Shown: piece after piece, positions 9,191 to 14,282 of the stretch
How the letters are laid out: the number at the start of each line of letters is the position of its first letter
Position numbering within the stretch: the first letter of the stretch is position 1
From: Bacteroidaceae bacterium
GTDB lineage: Bacteria; Bacteroidota; Bacteroidia; Bacteroidales; Bacteroidaceae
Length of the DNA: 37,560 nucleotides
Assembly: GCA_017381015.1 (NCBI GenBank)
Contig: JAFOCV010000108.1
Span: 1 to 37,560 of the forward strand
Direction: 5' to 3'
The notes under the pieces: model-generated
Told to the model about the DNA's origin: nothing
Databases searched by the model: none
The model's input: only the letters and a program-made list of their open reading frames with translations
Translations under genes and position numbers: made by a program

Positions 9191-9396
9191 TTTATAGAAT
9201 TGACAACGTGCCTATAAAAAACAATGCCATTTTTTATAGGATTAACGACAGTTCTATAAAAACCAAAACTATTTTTTATAGAATCAACAACGTCTCTATA
9301 AAAATCGATGTTATTTTTTATAGAATCAATGACGTACCTTTAAAAACTAAAGCCATTTTTTATAGAATCAATGACGTCTCTATAAAAAATGGCTAT
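9191..9396. repeat. 42-bp tandem repeat array A, five palindromic units
   Basis: Units begin at 9191, 9233, 9275, 9317 and 9359, exactly 42 bases apart. Each has a constant core of about 32 bases made of inverted arms, TTTTTATAGA and TCTATAAAAA (perfect in units 3 and 5), around a 12-base centre such as ATCAATGACGTC, then a variable stretch of about 9-10 bases that differs in every unit. A 76-codon frame (9208-9438, plus) runs through only because 42 is a multiple of three; I regard it as non-coding. The array lies between the oadG promoter and the end of folB. Confidence 0.9.
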
Positions 9397-9434: not shown

Positions 9435-9797
9435 TTAGCGCGCCAACTTGACTGACACGCCAATAGCATCTACAGGCACACCACAGGGAGGATTCTCCTT
9501 GTCAATCCTCAAAACCAGCGATTGAATGAGAGGAAATTCGTTGAGCAACCTCTGCCCCACTCTATATGCCAAATGCTCGAGCAAGGCGGCAGGGATAGCC
9601 ATCTCCTTACGAATGCAATCAATAATATCGGCATAGGAAACGGTGCCTTCAAGGCAATCGCGAAGAAGAGCATCATCCGACACTTCCACGTCGGCCTCCA
9701 GGGATACGAAAAAACGAGCTCCCACCACCCTCTCCTGTGGAATCACACCATGATGAGAGTAGGTGGACAATCGTTCAATATGTATGGTATTAATCAT
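9435..9797 (-). CDS. folB: Dihydroneopterin aldolase
   Basis: 120 residues, the usual length. FolB cleaves 7,8-dihydroneopterin to 6-hydroxymethyl-dihydropterin and glycolaldehyde in folate synthesis, as a cytoplasmic octamer. Landmarks are STYSHHGVIPQERVVGARF near the N-terminus, SYADIIDCI with the substrate-contacting Tyr, LLEHLAYRV with the conserved Glu, and a C-terminal IDKENPP (KxxP type). I chose ATG at 9797 over TTG at 9800: AGGAGG lies six bases upstream of the ATG. The start overlaps the stop of the preceding gene as ATGATTAA, so translation is coupled to the nitroreductase fusion protein. No other folate gene is in the window. Confidence 0.92.
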   Translation of the reverse strand: MINTIHIERLSTYSHHGVIPQERVVGARFFVSLEADVEVSDDALLRDCLEGTVSYADIIDCIRKEMAIPAALLEHLAYRVGQRLLNEFPLIQSLVLRIDKENPPCGVPVDAIGVSVKLAR

Positions 9798-11013
9798 CAA
9801 TTTCCTCCTGACCCTGTATTAGCTCGGTATCACCACCACTGGCGTATCTCTTCAGTGCCTTGGCCACACCAGACACCCAGGTATTCATATTATCCGAATC
9901 CAATTGCAAGGAAGACACAAGGGCAATAACATTGTCCATAGGCATACCATAGCGCAAGACACCAGAAAGGAGTTTGGCATAATTCCAATACTCAGGATTG
10001 AAGCGCTCGGAAAGTCCCTCGATGGTAATCTTATAACCTCGTTTGTTGGTAAACTGGAAATCATAGCGACGAGAACCATCCTTGAGCACACGTCGAAGGA
10101 TATTACCCTTGCACACACTCTTGGGAATCATGATACCCTCATCATCGTCAAGGATACCGGTGAAAATCTCATACGGATGTCCATCCAGCAAACCCACGAA
10201 GGCCACCCATCTGTCTTTCTTATTCTGAAAACGCACTACGTCACACTCCAAAGATTCGGGGCGTGTTCCTTTGTAACCATTAGTAATATCGCCTAAGAAA
10301 TTTTGCTTGCGCAAGGCTGCTGCCAAGGTTAAGGACATAGCTTCATTGGCCTCTGCAGTATAACGAATATCAGTAAACACCTGAGCCAGGGTTTCCTTCT
10401 GATTAATCTCCACGAAATGCTTATTCTCTTCCAACGACTCCTTATAGGCATAGTGCTTGTCTATGTCCTCTGGGGTGTAAAGAGAATATGTTTCATTATG
10501 TATGATAGCCTCAATGGGAAGTCTGTCAGAGGGCTTTGGTGTCTCAGCTGGCCATCCAAGAGTAATCGTTGCTACAGGGAACACCAATTGGGGCAAGCGA
10601 AGCACATCGATGATTAATTGAGGATTGTAGACAGTAGTTCCCAGAAAACAAAGGCCCAAACCTTCCTCCTCTGCCAGGTCGCAAAATCTCTGACAGAAGA
10701 GCATGGCATCGGTAGTTGCATTCTGATAAGACAGGAAATTGTCATAACCAGGATGTCCCTGTCTGTTCAATGCCCAATCCGTGGTGCGGCGAAAATCTGC
10801 ACAGAACGTGAGCACCACGGGAGCTTGCATAAGCATAGGTTGAGAGAAATGAGCTGGAGCCAAGCGCTCCTTCATCTCCTGCTCGCGAGTAACCACCACG
10901 CTATACAATTGCAGGTTACCCATCGTCTGGGTATGCGATGCCTTCTCCAGAAGGGTATTCAATAGTTCCTCACTAATGGGTTGGGATGTATATTTTCTAA
11001 CTGTTGCTCTCAT
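9790..11013 (-). CDS. Nitroreductase fused to the C-terminal domain of class II ribonucleotide reductase
   Basis: 407 residues in one uninterrupted frame. Residues 1 to about 225 are a full-length FMN nitroreductase of the Bacteroidetes type (RATVRKYTSQPIS at the FMN-binding N-terminus, VVLTFCADF, GLGLCFLGTTVYNP, LPIEAIIHNETY, KETLAQVFTDIRYT near its normal end). Residues about 226-395 read like the C-terminal TSCPD-type region of the adenosylcobalamin-dependent reductase NrdJ from Bacteroidetes: DVVRF, WVAFVGLLDGHPYEIFTG, IPKSVCKGNI, YDFQFTNKRGYK, GLSERFNPEYWNYAKL, SGVLRYGMP, SLQLDSDNMNTW, ALKRY. The Cys-rich CxxC tail that ends NrdJ is absent; only two lone Cys remain in this half. It overlaps folB and follows dnaA by about 120 bases. 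The nitroreductase half should reduce a quinone or nitro compound with NAD(P)H; the role of the other half is unknown. Confidence 0.85.
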   Translation of the reverse strand: MRATVRKYTSQPISEELLNTLLEKASHTQTMGNLQLYSVVVTREQEMKERLAPAHFSQPMLMQAPVVLTFCADFRRTTDWALNRQGHPGYDNFLSYQNATTDAMLFCQRFCDLAEEEGLGLCFLGTTVYNPQLIIDVLRLPQLVFPVATITLGWPAETPKPSDRLPIEAIIHNETYSLYTPEDIDKHYAYKESLEENKHFVEINQKETLAQVFTDIRYTAEANEAMSLTLAAALRKQNFLGDITNGYKGTRPESLECDVVRFQNKKDRWVAFVGLLDGHPYEIFTGILDDDEGIMIPKSVCKGNILRRVLKDGSRRYDFQFTNKRGYKITIEGLSERFNPEYWNYAKLLSGVLRYGMPMDNVIALVSSLQLDSDNMNTWVSGVAKALKRYASGGDTELIQGQEEIDD

Positions 11014-11134: not shown

Positions 11135-12529
11135 CTAGAGTTTCTTTTCCAATTCCTTGATTTCTTTTTTAAACTCTGCACTCTCCTTCATCTTTTTATC
11201 AATGCACTGAATACCATGTATCACGGTGGCATGCGAACGACGACCGATGATATGACCGATGTGCTTCACGGTGTCGCCCGTGTGCTTTTGGGTGAGATAC
11301 ATTGCCACCTGTCTGGCCAGTACAAACTCTGCCTTGCGGCTCTGACCACAAAGTTCTTCATTGGTAACCTTGTATTTGCGGCATACTACCTCGATGATTT
11401 CGTCTGCATTTAGCACACGACGGCGGTATCTGGTATTGGCTTTTAATATCTTCTTGGCAAATTCCAGGTCTATCACATCACCATTCACCACACTATAGGC
11501 AAGCATCGAATTGACAAAGCCTTCCAATTCACGCACATTGTCTTGCAAATGCTCTGCAACGTATTCTATTACGTCGTCGGATATCTCAAGACCATCCTTG
11601 CTTACCAACTGACGGAGAATATCTCGACGCAATTGAATATCGGGTGATTCCAATTCGGCTAGCATACCCCACTTGAATCGGGTGAGCATGCGCTCCTCCA
11701 CGTCCCTCAACTCCACTGGTGGGCGGTCGCTGGTCATTATTATCTGACGTCCGTTCAGATGGAGATGATTGAAGATATGGAAGAAAGCCTCCATGGTCTT
11801 CTCCTTACCAGAGAATTCCTGTACGTCATCCACTATCAAGCAATCAATACTCTGATAGAAGTGAATGAAATCGTTGGTCTTATTGTTCAAACGAGCATCT
11901 ACGTATTGCACCTGAAACACGTTGGCAGACACATAGAGCACTCTCTTCTCGGGGTGCATCTGACGAAGGCGAACACCAATAGCATTAACCAGGTGAGTCT
12001 TACCACATCCACTGGGGCCATAGATGAAGAGAGGATTGAAGGTCTTGCGAGCTGGTTGGTCAGCAACACTCTGACCCACACTTCTTGGCAATCTATTTGA
12101 AGAACCCTCGATAAAATTATCAAAGTTCTGCGACAGATTCAAATAAGACTGAAAATCCGACACGGGAGCAGCCGTATGTATTGCACCAGGCGCACGATTT
12201 AATGGACGACTGGAGGATGGCTCGCGCAAGAGAGTGGCTTGATTTCCTTCCTCTCGAACTTCCTCATCCTGAATCAGTGCAACCTTATATACCAACTTAG
12301 AATCGGGCCCGAAAACATGAAAGATGGCCAGATATATCAGCTGGCGATAATGCTCCTCCAGGTATTCGTAGAAGAAATGACTGGGTACGTATATGGTAAC
12401 CTCCTTGGTGGCGATATCATAAGACTTAAATCCTATGGGTTCGAACCAAGTGGTATATTGCTGAGGGTTTAGTCTGGAGCGTATTAATTCCAGACATTTT
12501 TTCCACTGAGTTTGCTCAGTTGTAATCAT
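11135..12529 (-). CDS. dnaA: Chromosomal replication initiator protein DnaA
   Basis: 464 residues, normal length. Domain I (about 1-85) recruits partners, a short linker (about 86-125) follows, then the AAA+ domain: Walker A GPSGCGKT (171-178), Walker B LIVDDVQ (231-237), sensor 1 TSDRPP (266-271), Arg-finger region around RFKWG (284-288), and sensor 2 NVRELEG (331-337). The C-terminal DNA-binding domain has GRRSHATVIHG (429-439), which replaces the textbook GGRDHSTVIHA but keeps the HATV/HSTV contact residues. DnaA binds 9-base boxes, opens the origin and loads helicase. It lies downstream of the MlaD-like gene by about 70 bases. I saw no cluster of TTATCCACA boxes near it, so the origin is not placed here. 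Confidence 0.97.
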   Translation of the reverse strand: MITTEQTQWKKCLELIRSRLNPQQYTTWFEPIGFKSYDIATKEVTIYVPSHFFYEYLEEHYRQLIYLAIFHVFGPDSKLVYKVALIQDEEVREEGNQATLLREPSSSRPLNRAPGAIHTAAPVSDFQSYLNLSQNFDNFIEGSSNRLPRSVGQSVADQPARKTFNPLFIYGPSGCGKTHLVNAIGVRLRQMHPEKRVLYVSANVFQVQYVDARLNNKTNDFIHFYQSIDCLIVDDVQEFSGKEKTMEAFFHIFNHLHLNGRQIIMTSDRPPVELRDVEERMLTRFKWGMLAELESPDIQLRRDILRQLVSKDGLEISDDVIEYVAEHLQDNVRELEGFVNSMLAYSVVNGDVIDLEFAKKILKANTRYRRRVLNADEIIEVVCRKYKVTNEELCGQSRKAEFVLARQVAMYLTQKHTGDTVKHIGHIIGRRSHATVIHGIQCIDKKMKESAEFKKEIKELEKKL

Positions 12530-12600: not shown

Positions 12601-13485
12601 TTACTTTGTCTTGCTTCCAAACAGAGAGAAGTGCACATAGCGCTTTGGGCGAGCCTTAATGTCTGTCATCAACGAATCTACGGTGCTCACCGTCCTGTTC
12701 AAACTATTATACAAACTTCTATCATACATCAATGCGCCTAGAGTACCATTTGGATTGGATACCTGTTGCATAATGGCATTGACATTGCTTATTGTCATAT
12801 TCACGCTATCCAATGTATTCTGGATATCAACTGACTTGAGATTTTCAGTAATCACACGCACGTTTTCTCCCACCTTATTATATGTGCTTGCCAAAACTGG
12901 CAGGTCACGACCCATAAAGGTATTGATGTGCTCTGTGGTAGTGGTGAGATTAGCGCTCATCTGCTCTACGTTACTAAGGATAGAAGCAAGGTTGGGATTT
13001 GACACCAATGTGTTCAGTGCTCCAATGAGAGTATCTAATTTGCAAGTAATGGCATTGATTCTGGGCATCATTTCCTCCACTTGGTTCATCAGAGGAGCCT
13101 CTTCATAACCTTGGATAGTATCGCCTGGCAGATATCTCTTGTCAGAAAGAGGAGTGGGAACAATGTTCATCGTGCAACCACCCATCAAGTCAGACTCTAC
13201 CATGATTTGGGTTCCTTCACACAGGACTATATTGGGGTCAATGCTGATTTCAACCAAAACATTGCCTCGGTTTGAATAACTGTATACAACATCAGTCACA
13301 ATACCGGCATCGTATCCATCCACGTAAACAACGGTACTTTTTGTCAAGCCCTTTGCATTGGTGTATCGAACATAATACTCATTATAGGTATTGAAGAGCG
13401 ATTTACCCTTCAAAAAATTTATTCCCATGAACAAGGCTACCAAGGCAATTATGCCCACCAAACCTATTTTGAATTCTTTCTTCAT
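12601..13485 (-). CDS. MCE/MlaD-family lipid transport protein
   Basis: 294 residues. One N-terminal membrane anchor (about 6-26, IGLVGIIALVALFMGINFL) is followed by one MCE domain (about 36-115, starting YYVRYTNAKGLTKSTVVYVDG) and a long helical, coiled-coil-like region (about 125-290) with repeated Asn/Thr/Leu pattern. This matches MlaD-like substrate-binding subunits that carry phospholipids across the periplasm with an MlaE/MlaF transporter. Those partners are not in this window, so it may work with proteins encoded elsewhere. It sits 41 bases after the amidase gene in the same direction, an arrangement I recall from other Bacteroidales, so both are probably co-transcribed. Confidence 0.88.
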   Translation of the reverse strand: MKKEFKIGLVGIIALVALFMGINFLKGKSLFNTYNEYYVRYTNAKGLTKSTVVYVDGYDAGIVTDVVYSYSNRGNVLVEISIDPNIVLCEGTQIMVESDLMGGCTMNIVPTPLSDKRYLPGDTIQGYEEAPLMNQVEEMMPRINAITCKLDTLIGALNTLVSNPNLASILSNVEQMSANLTTTTEHINTFMGRDLPVLASTYNKVGENVRVITENLKSVDIQNTLDSVNMTISNVNAIMQQVSNPNGTLGALMYDRSLYNSLNRTVSTVDSLMTDIKARPKRYVHFSLFGSKTK

Positions 13486-13526: not shown

Positions 13527-14282
13527 TTATCTGCTCTTGTAGTATTTGACAAAGGCATTATAGATACTCTTTGCCAATTGTTTTTGTCCCCAATCGCTAG
13601 CCAAGTACTTTTCTTCCTCTCGGTTGTTGATAAACCCTAGCTCTATCAACACACTTGGCATACTCACTTCACGCAGCACCAGGAATCCAGCTTGATGCAC
13701 TCCCTTGTTGTAGCGCTTGGCCGTGGAAACAAATTGTTTCTGTATCAAGTCTGCAAACTTTACGCTTGATGCCATATACTGGTCTTGCATAAACTCGAAG
13801 ATGATGTACGATTCGCTACTATTGGGGTCAAAGCCTTCATACTTCTCTTCAAAATTTGATTCCAGTGCAATTACCGAGTTCTCTCTCTTAGCCACCGCTA
13901 GATTGTCTGCTGCTCGATGCATACCCAGTGTATATGTCTCTGTACCTTGTGCTTTGGTACCCTTTGTGCCAGATGCCGTGCTATTTGTATGAATCGAGAT
14001 AAACAAATCGGCTTTCACCTTGTTGGCTATCTGTGCTCGACGTCCCAATTCCACAAAGGTATCATTATTCCTGGTGTAAACCACTTTGATACCAGGATAG
14101 TTGGCCTTTATCAAATTTCCCAAAGCCAGAGCAACCTTCAGATTGATATCTTTTTCTTTTGCTCTTAAACCTAGTGCTCCTACGTCTCTGCCTCCATGTC
14201 CAGGGTCAATCACCACTGTGTATGCCAAAGACTGAAAGCAACAAAAGAATATAGAAATAACAATCGCTAAAAATCTGCTCAT
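13527..14282 (-). CDS. N-acetylmuramoyl-L-alanine amidase (Amidase_3, AmiC-like)
   Basis: 251 residues with a signal peptide (about 1-20, cleavage near SLAYT). The zinc-amidase motifs are all present: VIDPGHGGRDVGA with the first His, the Glu in KEKDINLKVAL, SIHTNS with the second His, and the catalytic Glu in VLIELGFINN. It cleaves the bond between N-acetylmuramic acid and the stem peptide in the periplasm and acts in daughter-cell separation. It has no LysM, AMIN or SPOR domain, so it is a single-domain enzyme. The promoter box TAACTTTG lies 28 bases before the start; the intergenic region also carries the divergent promoter of the CotH-family gene. Confidence 0.93.
   Translation of the reverse strand: MSRFLAIVISIFFCCFQSLAYTVVIDPGHGGRDVGALGLRAKEKDINLKVALALGNLIKANYPGIKVVYTRNNDTFVELGRRAQIANKVKADLFISIHTNSTASGTKGTKAQGTETYTLGMHRAADNLAVAKRENSVIALESNFEEKYEGFDPNSSESYIIFEFMQDQYMASSVKFADLIQKQFVSTAKRYNKGVHQAGFLVLREVSMPSVLIELGFINNREEEKYLASDWGQKQLAKSIYNAFVKYYKSR

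Follow-up and report, generated by a model that had tools for sequence, protein, structure and literature searches.

Introduction

The C-terminal, cysteine-rich domain (CRD) of the class II ribonucleotide reductase NrdJ is encoded by a separate gene, nrdJb, in Pseudomonas aeruginosa (PMC5704485), and the roles described for the CRD and NrdJb, in the portions of the sources available to us, are thiol-disulfide exchange and oligomerisation (PMC5704485, PMC4520616). A family-wide analysis divides the long C-termini of class II enzymes into an IscU-like domain and a zinc finger, and its accessible text says that the IscU-like domain, a folded unit close to the end of many of these enzymes, has had no role reported (PMC9669993, Protein Sci 2022). 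A nitroreductase-NrdJ fusion, a free NrdJ C-terminal domain or an NrdJ pseudoenzyme was not recognised in any report listed by searches of open-licence PMC papers, judged mostly on titles and abstract openings.

Here we describe a gene in a 37,560-nucleotide stretch of Bacteroidaceae DNA (the window, meaning the whole stretch analysed) that joins a nitroreductase in frame to a domain homologous to, and colinear with, the NrdJ C-terminus (hereafter the C-domain). It differs from NrdJ and NrdJb in that the six-cysteine tail is lost, a nitroreductase is attached, and nearly all genomes carrying the fusion are without a detected catalytic subunit. The C-domain is of the same alpha+beta type as the IscU-like domain, which the available text of PMC9669993 places after the catalytic barrel and before the zinc finger; judging from this position and from its TSCPD match, it is probably the same unit. 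By contrast with IscU itself, the C-domain has one conserved cysteine column, so that the Fe-S ligand set is incomplete, and hhalign of the C-domain against two near-identical IscU sequences returned no match.

Results and discussion

Predicted domains of the fusion protein

The fusion gene (9790..11013, minus strand) is an ATG-initiated frame of 407 unbroken codons with zero internal stops, encoding a 407-residue protein in which a nitroreductase precedes a TSCPD-type NrdJ C-terminal domain. The nitroreductase domain (residues 1-240; 10294..11013, minus) matches PF00881 over residues 2-154 (E 4.2e-13, 50.3 bits against a cut-off of 23.5) and PDB 3eof, a free-standing oxidoreductase of 248 residues, over residues 2-240 (E 1.6e-94), an extent that agrees with the ends of unfused relatives and with the model confidence (pLDDT). 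Unlike such free-standing enzymes, the fusion has an extra domain, and it scores 95 bits against a cut-off of 223 for NF008033 (NCBIfam, oxygen-insensitive NADPH nitroreductase). By these sequence matches the first half is a complete PF00881-type domain and a putative FMN/NAD(P)H oxidoreductase.

A linker (residues 241-250; 10264..10293, minus), placed by comparison of fused and unfused relatives and with residues 244-248 at pLDDT <50, leads into the NrdJ-derived C-domain (residues 251-391; 9841..10263, minus), for which homology and the model predict six strands followed by four helices, with one conserved cysteine at position 257. In the relatives printed, fusions run on via the linker into 'RPE.LECD' or close variants, while unfused nitroreductases mostly end at or just past '..QGFL' without a C-domain. 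The idea that members of this nitroreductase family ordinarily carry the second half as an extension, which the preliminary description had named as a possible refutation of its reading, is rejected on these ends. Residues 392-407 and the stop (9790..9840, minus) form an acidic, cysteine-free, low-confidence end, probably disordered according to the model, in place of the six-cysteine zinc/redox tail of NrdJ.

At 62-73% identity over ~145 residues, the second half resembles NrdJ of other family genomes, where the matching frames are mostly ~850 aa long and bear the NrdJ barrel; on this homology it is taken as the C-terminal domain of class II ribonucleotide reductase NrdJ. Against PF12637 (TSCPD) it falls just below the curated threshold (E 1.9e-4; 22.1 against 22.8 bits), yet 27/28 related C-domains match that profile at E<=1 (best 3.1e-6); a six-frame search of the window's own genome listed no PF12637 match at E<=0.001. 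The second half alone had no match in a PDB sequence search at E<=10, and a profile of 28 C-domains reached a best E of 0.81 against PDB, regarded as chance. Pfam NifU (PF01106) was matched by 4/28 C-domains with a best E of 0.034, likewise regarded as chance, and an NCBIfam scan of two stand-alone proteins and one stub-form protein gave no match at E<=0.1.

The comparison proposed earlier came out clearly for NrdJ and just under the curated threshold for TSCPD. The preliminary description was right that a complete nitroreductase and an NrdJ C-terminus lie in one frame, which joins two complete domains, while its borders (225, and 226-395) shift to ~240 and ~251-391. It was also correct in finding the barrel and the cysteine-rich tail missing and in concluding that the protein would not be a reductase: TIGR02504, the NrdJ barrel profile, matched neither the fusion protein nor the window's genome.

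The AlphaFold2 model has a mean pLDDT of 86.4 and a pTM of 0.62. In blocks of 10 residues, pLDDT is 86-97 in the nitroreductase (first block 79) and 81-91 in the C-domain (one block 68); at this pTM the model says nothing reliable about the relative placing of the two domains.

In the C-domain alignment a single column has cysteine in more than three rows, where it is held in 104/117 rows, making an IscU-type Fe-S scaffold unlikely. The cysteine tail is absent from fused, stub-form and most stand-alone proteins, and thiol-disulfide exchange for an active site, as far as described in the sources above, cannot apply to the fusion. The exceptions are L140, an ambiguous case with a full tail, and three stand-alone proteins of genus g12 (L045, L046, L050), which like the eroded proteins keep four tail cysteines and miss two. 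In our reading of the available parts of PMC5704485 and PMC9669993, the two missing cysteines would be the redox pair.

Fused, free and eroded forms at the nrdJ locus

Upstream of the fusion lies dnaA (11135..12529, minus) at a gap of 121 bp, and downstream folB (9435..9800, minus), which overlaps the fusion end by 11 nt. Profile matches and the loci of relatives extend this to a cluster amidase-MlaD-dnaA-[nitroreductase, C-domain]-folB, with an MlaD-like gene at 12601..13485 and an N-acetylmuramoyl-L-alanine amidase gene at 13527..14282 (both minus). Among 27 fusion loci, with start codons assigned mechanically and one contig present twice (L038 and L087), the dnaA stop and the fusion start overlap by 4 nt in 18. 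The window also has a tandem array (9191-9389) of ~4.7 copies of a 42-bp unit (TTTATAGAATCAACGACGTC...), situated in the interval from folB to the gene for the gamma subunit of oxaloacetate decarboxylase.

When the ORFs of 40 fetched regions were compared with the window proteins, nrdJ was found to occupy the place of the fusion in relatives. The cluster amidase-MlaD-dnaA-nitroreductase-nrdJ-folB presents a graded series: an intact NrdJ, an NrdJ whose barrel has decayed (G023, G049, G043, G136), a C-domain preceded by a stub of ~62 NrdJ residues (G001, G031, G054, G106), a lone C-domain, and the fusion. Named carriers of the free domain include Prevotella lacticifex (L121) and Xylanibacter ruminicola D31d (L147). 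Two gene orders occur, in one of which folB, amidase and MlaD stand between the domain and dnaA. In most cases the nitroreductase lies next to NrdJ or the free domain in divergent orientation, so that the fusion probably needed an inversion besides a deletion. The order dnaA-nitroreductase-nrdJ also exists in two other families (L157, L158), and six further loci from other families (L159-L163, L171; 12-13 kb fetched for each) had no dnaA close to NrdJ. The dnaA neighbourhood may simply be inherited.

Retention of the C-domain in NrdJ-less genomes

A single match across both halves identified the fusion in 49/101 genomes of the genus (48 without an internal stop, and G231 with one TAG) and on 20 contigs (L073-L092, of which at least L087 is the same contig as the genus-sample L038) of uncultured Bacteroidaceae, Prevotellaceae or Bacteroidales, including Candidatus Physcousia equi. 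An assembly artefact is excluded by these matches. NrdJ_Z was undetected in 48/49 fusion genomes of the genus sample, the exception being G095. This answers in the negative the earlier question of whether all fusion carriers also encode NrdJ. In G095 (contigs L067 and L038) and in G138 of the family sample (contigs L068 and L039) the fusion coexists with a complete NrdJ located on a different contig, and NrdJ may have been reacquired or retained there. The window's genome (84.6% complete) gave no NrdJ_Z match and no class I NrdA match, and has class III NrdD.

In a family sample of 151 genomes (Bacteroidaceae/Prevotella-type Bacteroidales, a label taken from named relatives), the domain is present in 144 and an NrdJ_Z match in 121, which include some class I NrdA or eroded barrels. 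The domain is kept by 24 of the 30 genomes without NrdJ_Z (20 listed, and 10 by difference from the listed matches): 5 fused, 4 behind the stub and 15 alone. When completeness of 90% or more and contamination of 5% or less are required, 19/106 genomes are without NrdJ_Z, and all of these except G059 (18/19) retain the domain. Within the genus sample, 26 genomes have an NrdJ_Z match (24 above cut-off), and 70 of the remaining 75 keep the domain, 48 fused and 22 as a separate frame; this split is our own count from the printed rows, and 'separate' is defined by frame length and NrdJ absence only (the frame of G161 is 448 aa). Many genomes are incomplete, and some of the NrdJ-less assignments may be gaps. 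Neither NrdJ nor the domain was found in 6/30 of the family (G019, G059, G084, G090, G115, G129) and 5/75 of the genus (G192, G195, G197, G222, G243), indicating that the domain is not universally required; G059 is 96% complete and the other ten of these 11 genomes 71-87%.

Further out, in an order sample of 295 genomes, 23 are without the domain. The 20 of them that are listed all lie outside the family, and 19 of these 20 are also without NrdJ_Z (G369 has a partial match). Judged from listed matches, which also supplied the frame lengths outside the family, the gene there goes as a whole, and retention of the domain is a feature of this Bacteroidaceae/Prevotella-type family. Persistence of the domain by itself in NrdJ-less genomes is a point absent from the preliminary description, and it makes the fusion one of several outcomes of NrdJ loss.

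Conservation of the C-domain without a working barrel

The decayed-barrel proteins allow barrel and C-domain to be compared within one frame. Over the residues that align, their barrels share 28, 38, 55 and 55% identity with that of the working NrdJ L032 (80-93% for 29 other NrdJ rows), and their C-domains 78-80% (77-94% for the same 29 rows), where two of the four (L061, L062) come from one genus and L059 aligns over 298/642 barrel residues only. The catalytic N-x-C-x-E is missing in all four (L061 and L062 read NPSGE), and by sequence these barrels are catalytically dead. Median C-domain identity to L032 is 0.72 for 25 fusions, 0.77 for 37 stand-alone proteins, 0.83 for 5 stub rows (including the cut NrdJ L063) and 0.81 for 29 NrdJ.

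Pairwise medians for the C-domain are 0.745 (26 fusions, excluding L087 as a duplicate of L038), 0.800 (42 alone/stub rows, excluding L063, an NrdJ truncated where its contig ends, and L140, a 188-aa frame with the full six-cysteine tail, and including the eroded L059) and 0.893 (29 NrdJ rows, excluding L060-L062). The nitroreductase gives 0.70, 0.67 and 0.71 in the same three groups, DnaA from the same loci 0.549, 0.516 and 0.55 (5 rows for NrdJ), and FolB 0.45-0.49. Detached C-domains are thus better conserved than DnaA. Their pN/pS is 0.24 in fusions and 0.18 in alone/stub forms, with pS ~0.8, near saturation, at which dN/dS of distant pairs is unreliable; in 42 printed fusion and alone/stub pairs with a C-domain dS of 0.02-1.0 (one counted twice via L087), dN/dS is 0.00-0.30.

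The same sites are conserved across forms. The alignment has 140 columns. In 79 of them conservation reaches 95% or more in NrdJ as well as in alone/stub proteins, with the same residue in 79/79; for columns conserved to this level in NrdJ and fusions the residue is the same in 69/70, and 63 columns are conserved and identical in all three forms. Invariant residues include W269, R316/Y317 and Y342/W343. NrdJ-conserved columns dropping below 80% number 6 in alone/stub forms and 15 in fusions. The results show that, without a reductase, constraint on the C-domain is almost as strong and falls on the same positions, with a slight relaxation in fusions.

On a nitroreductase tree (without L087, L067 and L068, and with L140 labelled ambiguous), placing all barrel-less rows in one clade was rejected (p-AU 8.7e-6), indicating that barrels were lost repeatedly or that the tree is misled by gene transfer. 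Fusions as a single clade were not rejected by the AU test (p-AU 0.62, with a better likelihood), though the quick nitroreductase tree needs four changes, and the fusion may have arisen once.

A probable function of the C-domain outside ribonucleotide reduction

Retention and conservation together suggest that the C-domain very probably has a conserved function independent of ribonucleotide reduction, presumably one already carried out inside NrdJ. The explanation we favour, and hold to be probable, is that a former NrdJ at this locus lost its catalytic barrel and redox tail, which would have freed a C-terminal domain with a function of its own; selection would then keep the domain alone, behind the ~62-residue stub, behind a decayed barrel or, as in the window, in an in-frame fusion with the complete nitroreductase beside it. 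With no redox cysteines and no Fe-S ligands, it would be an adaptor or regulator that binds another macromolecule through a surface also used in NrdJ, and a binding role is somewhat likelier than a catalytic one. The nitroreductase may give it a partner that is always attached, and co-expression with DnaA.

As for the process that the partner belongs to, replication or precursor supply is a guess prompted by the gene staying in the dnaA cluster. A partner linked to DnaA or replication is doubtful: neighbourhood and the translational overlap in fusions point to it, and an inherited neighbourhood explains these equally well. On a wider view, NrdJ of Bacteroidaceae/Prevotella-type bacteria could well be a two-job protein, a reading we put slightly ahead of its negation: the C-domain would act outside ribonucleotide reduction, perhaps in replication control beside dnaA, and the gene would be kept as a pseudoenzyme, stub, free domain or fusion after class II reduction was abandoned.

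Natural deletions have several times stripped away the enzyme and kept its probable IscU-like domain, and the function of that domain becomes testable in NrdJ-less cells, with the fusion offering a covalently attached candidate partner. A second job is suggested for a well-studied metabolic enzyme across a large group of anaerobes from gut and rumen. Proteins that carry the domain alone could easily be taken for truncated reductases and passed over.

Alternative explanations

The oxidoreductase and the C-domain could instead be an obligate functional pair, in which the C-domain would have the task of docking or steering the flavin enzyme and fusion would make the pairing permanent. Consistent with this, the nitroreductase adjoins NrdJ or the free domain, divergently, in most loci where it is seen; it is fused to the domain in about half of the genus genomes; and 6/6 family genomes without domain and NrdJ are also without this nitroreductase. 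Outside the family, it is present in 23/36 domain-bearing and 7/20 domain-less genomes, a hand-picked set. However, the four stub genomes and G142, which has a free domain, gave no match to this nitroreductase at E<=1e-15, four NrdJ genomes (G009, G020, G024, G110) are without it, and the seven genomes outside the family together with G195, G197 and G222 have the nitroreductase without the domain. Obligate pairing is thereby weakened and appears unlikely, and with it the suggestion of the preliminary description that a flavin oxidoreductase is coupled to nucleotide reduction, insofar as the coupling would be obligate.

A partnership with the anaerobic class III reductase NrdD, relied on after NrdJ loss, looks quite improbable. 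NrdD (PF13597) was found in 33/35 NrdJ-less or eroded genomes searched, that of the window included, and in the available text of PMC5704485 oligomers induced by dATP/dGTP are connected with the C-terminal domain of NrdJ. By contrast, all 6 family genomes without domain and NrdJ have NrdD, arguing against a general need of the domain, and the domain has lost the redox cysteines with which it might have served a reductase; this reading is weakened as well.

The fusion might also act in the context of NrdJ, either by supplying the C-terminal subunit in trans when the catalytic subunit is a protein of its own, as in the NrdJb/NrdJa arrangement of Pseudomonas aeruginosa, or as a competitor of full NrdJ. 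NrdJb is the same kind of domain encoded by a separate gene, as far as the accessible part of PMC5704485 describes it, and G095 and G138 carry both fusion and full NrdJ. However, with no barrel detected in 48/49 fusion genomes or in the window's genome, the cysteine array required for thiol-disulfide exchange missing, and a resident full NrdJ already owning a C-domain, such a role is highly improbable and is rejected for most carriers; the proposal that the domain recognises or competes with NrdJ is likewise not supported. Evolutionary debris, a harmless tail left undecayed by a recent deletion, is hardly credible: deletions with differing end points clearly occur at the locus and the lower median identity of fused than of NrdJ copies fits some relaxation, but a neutral remnant is ruled out by purifying selection over deep divergence (pS ~0.8, 74-80% median amino-acid identity), by barrels that decay while the attached C-domain does not, and by retention of the domain in 70/75 and 24/30 NrdJ-less genomes.

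Other reductase frames in the samples

Two family genomes that are 98% complete (G063, G113) have a free C-domain and no class I, II or III reductase match, probably through assembly gaps; for G113 three of the four negatives are by absence from the match lists. In G164, of the same genus, L172 5888-8035 (plus strand) is a frame of 715 aa that is 24% identical to part of the NrdJ barrel and is without a C-domain, a divergent reductase-like protein. In G313, barrel residues 264 and 265 of the 1344-aa NrdJ frame at L169 940-4974 (minus strand) are separated by an insert of ~486 aa, which resembles an intein in its position and frame.
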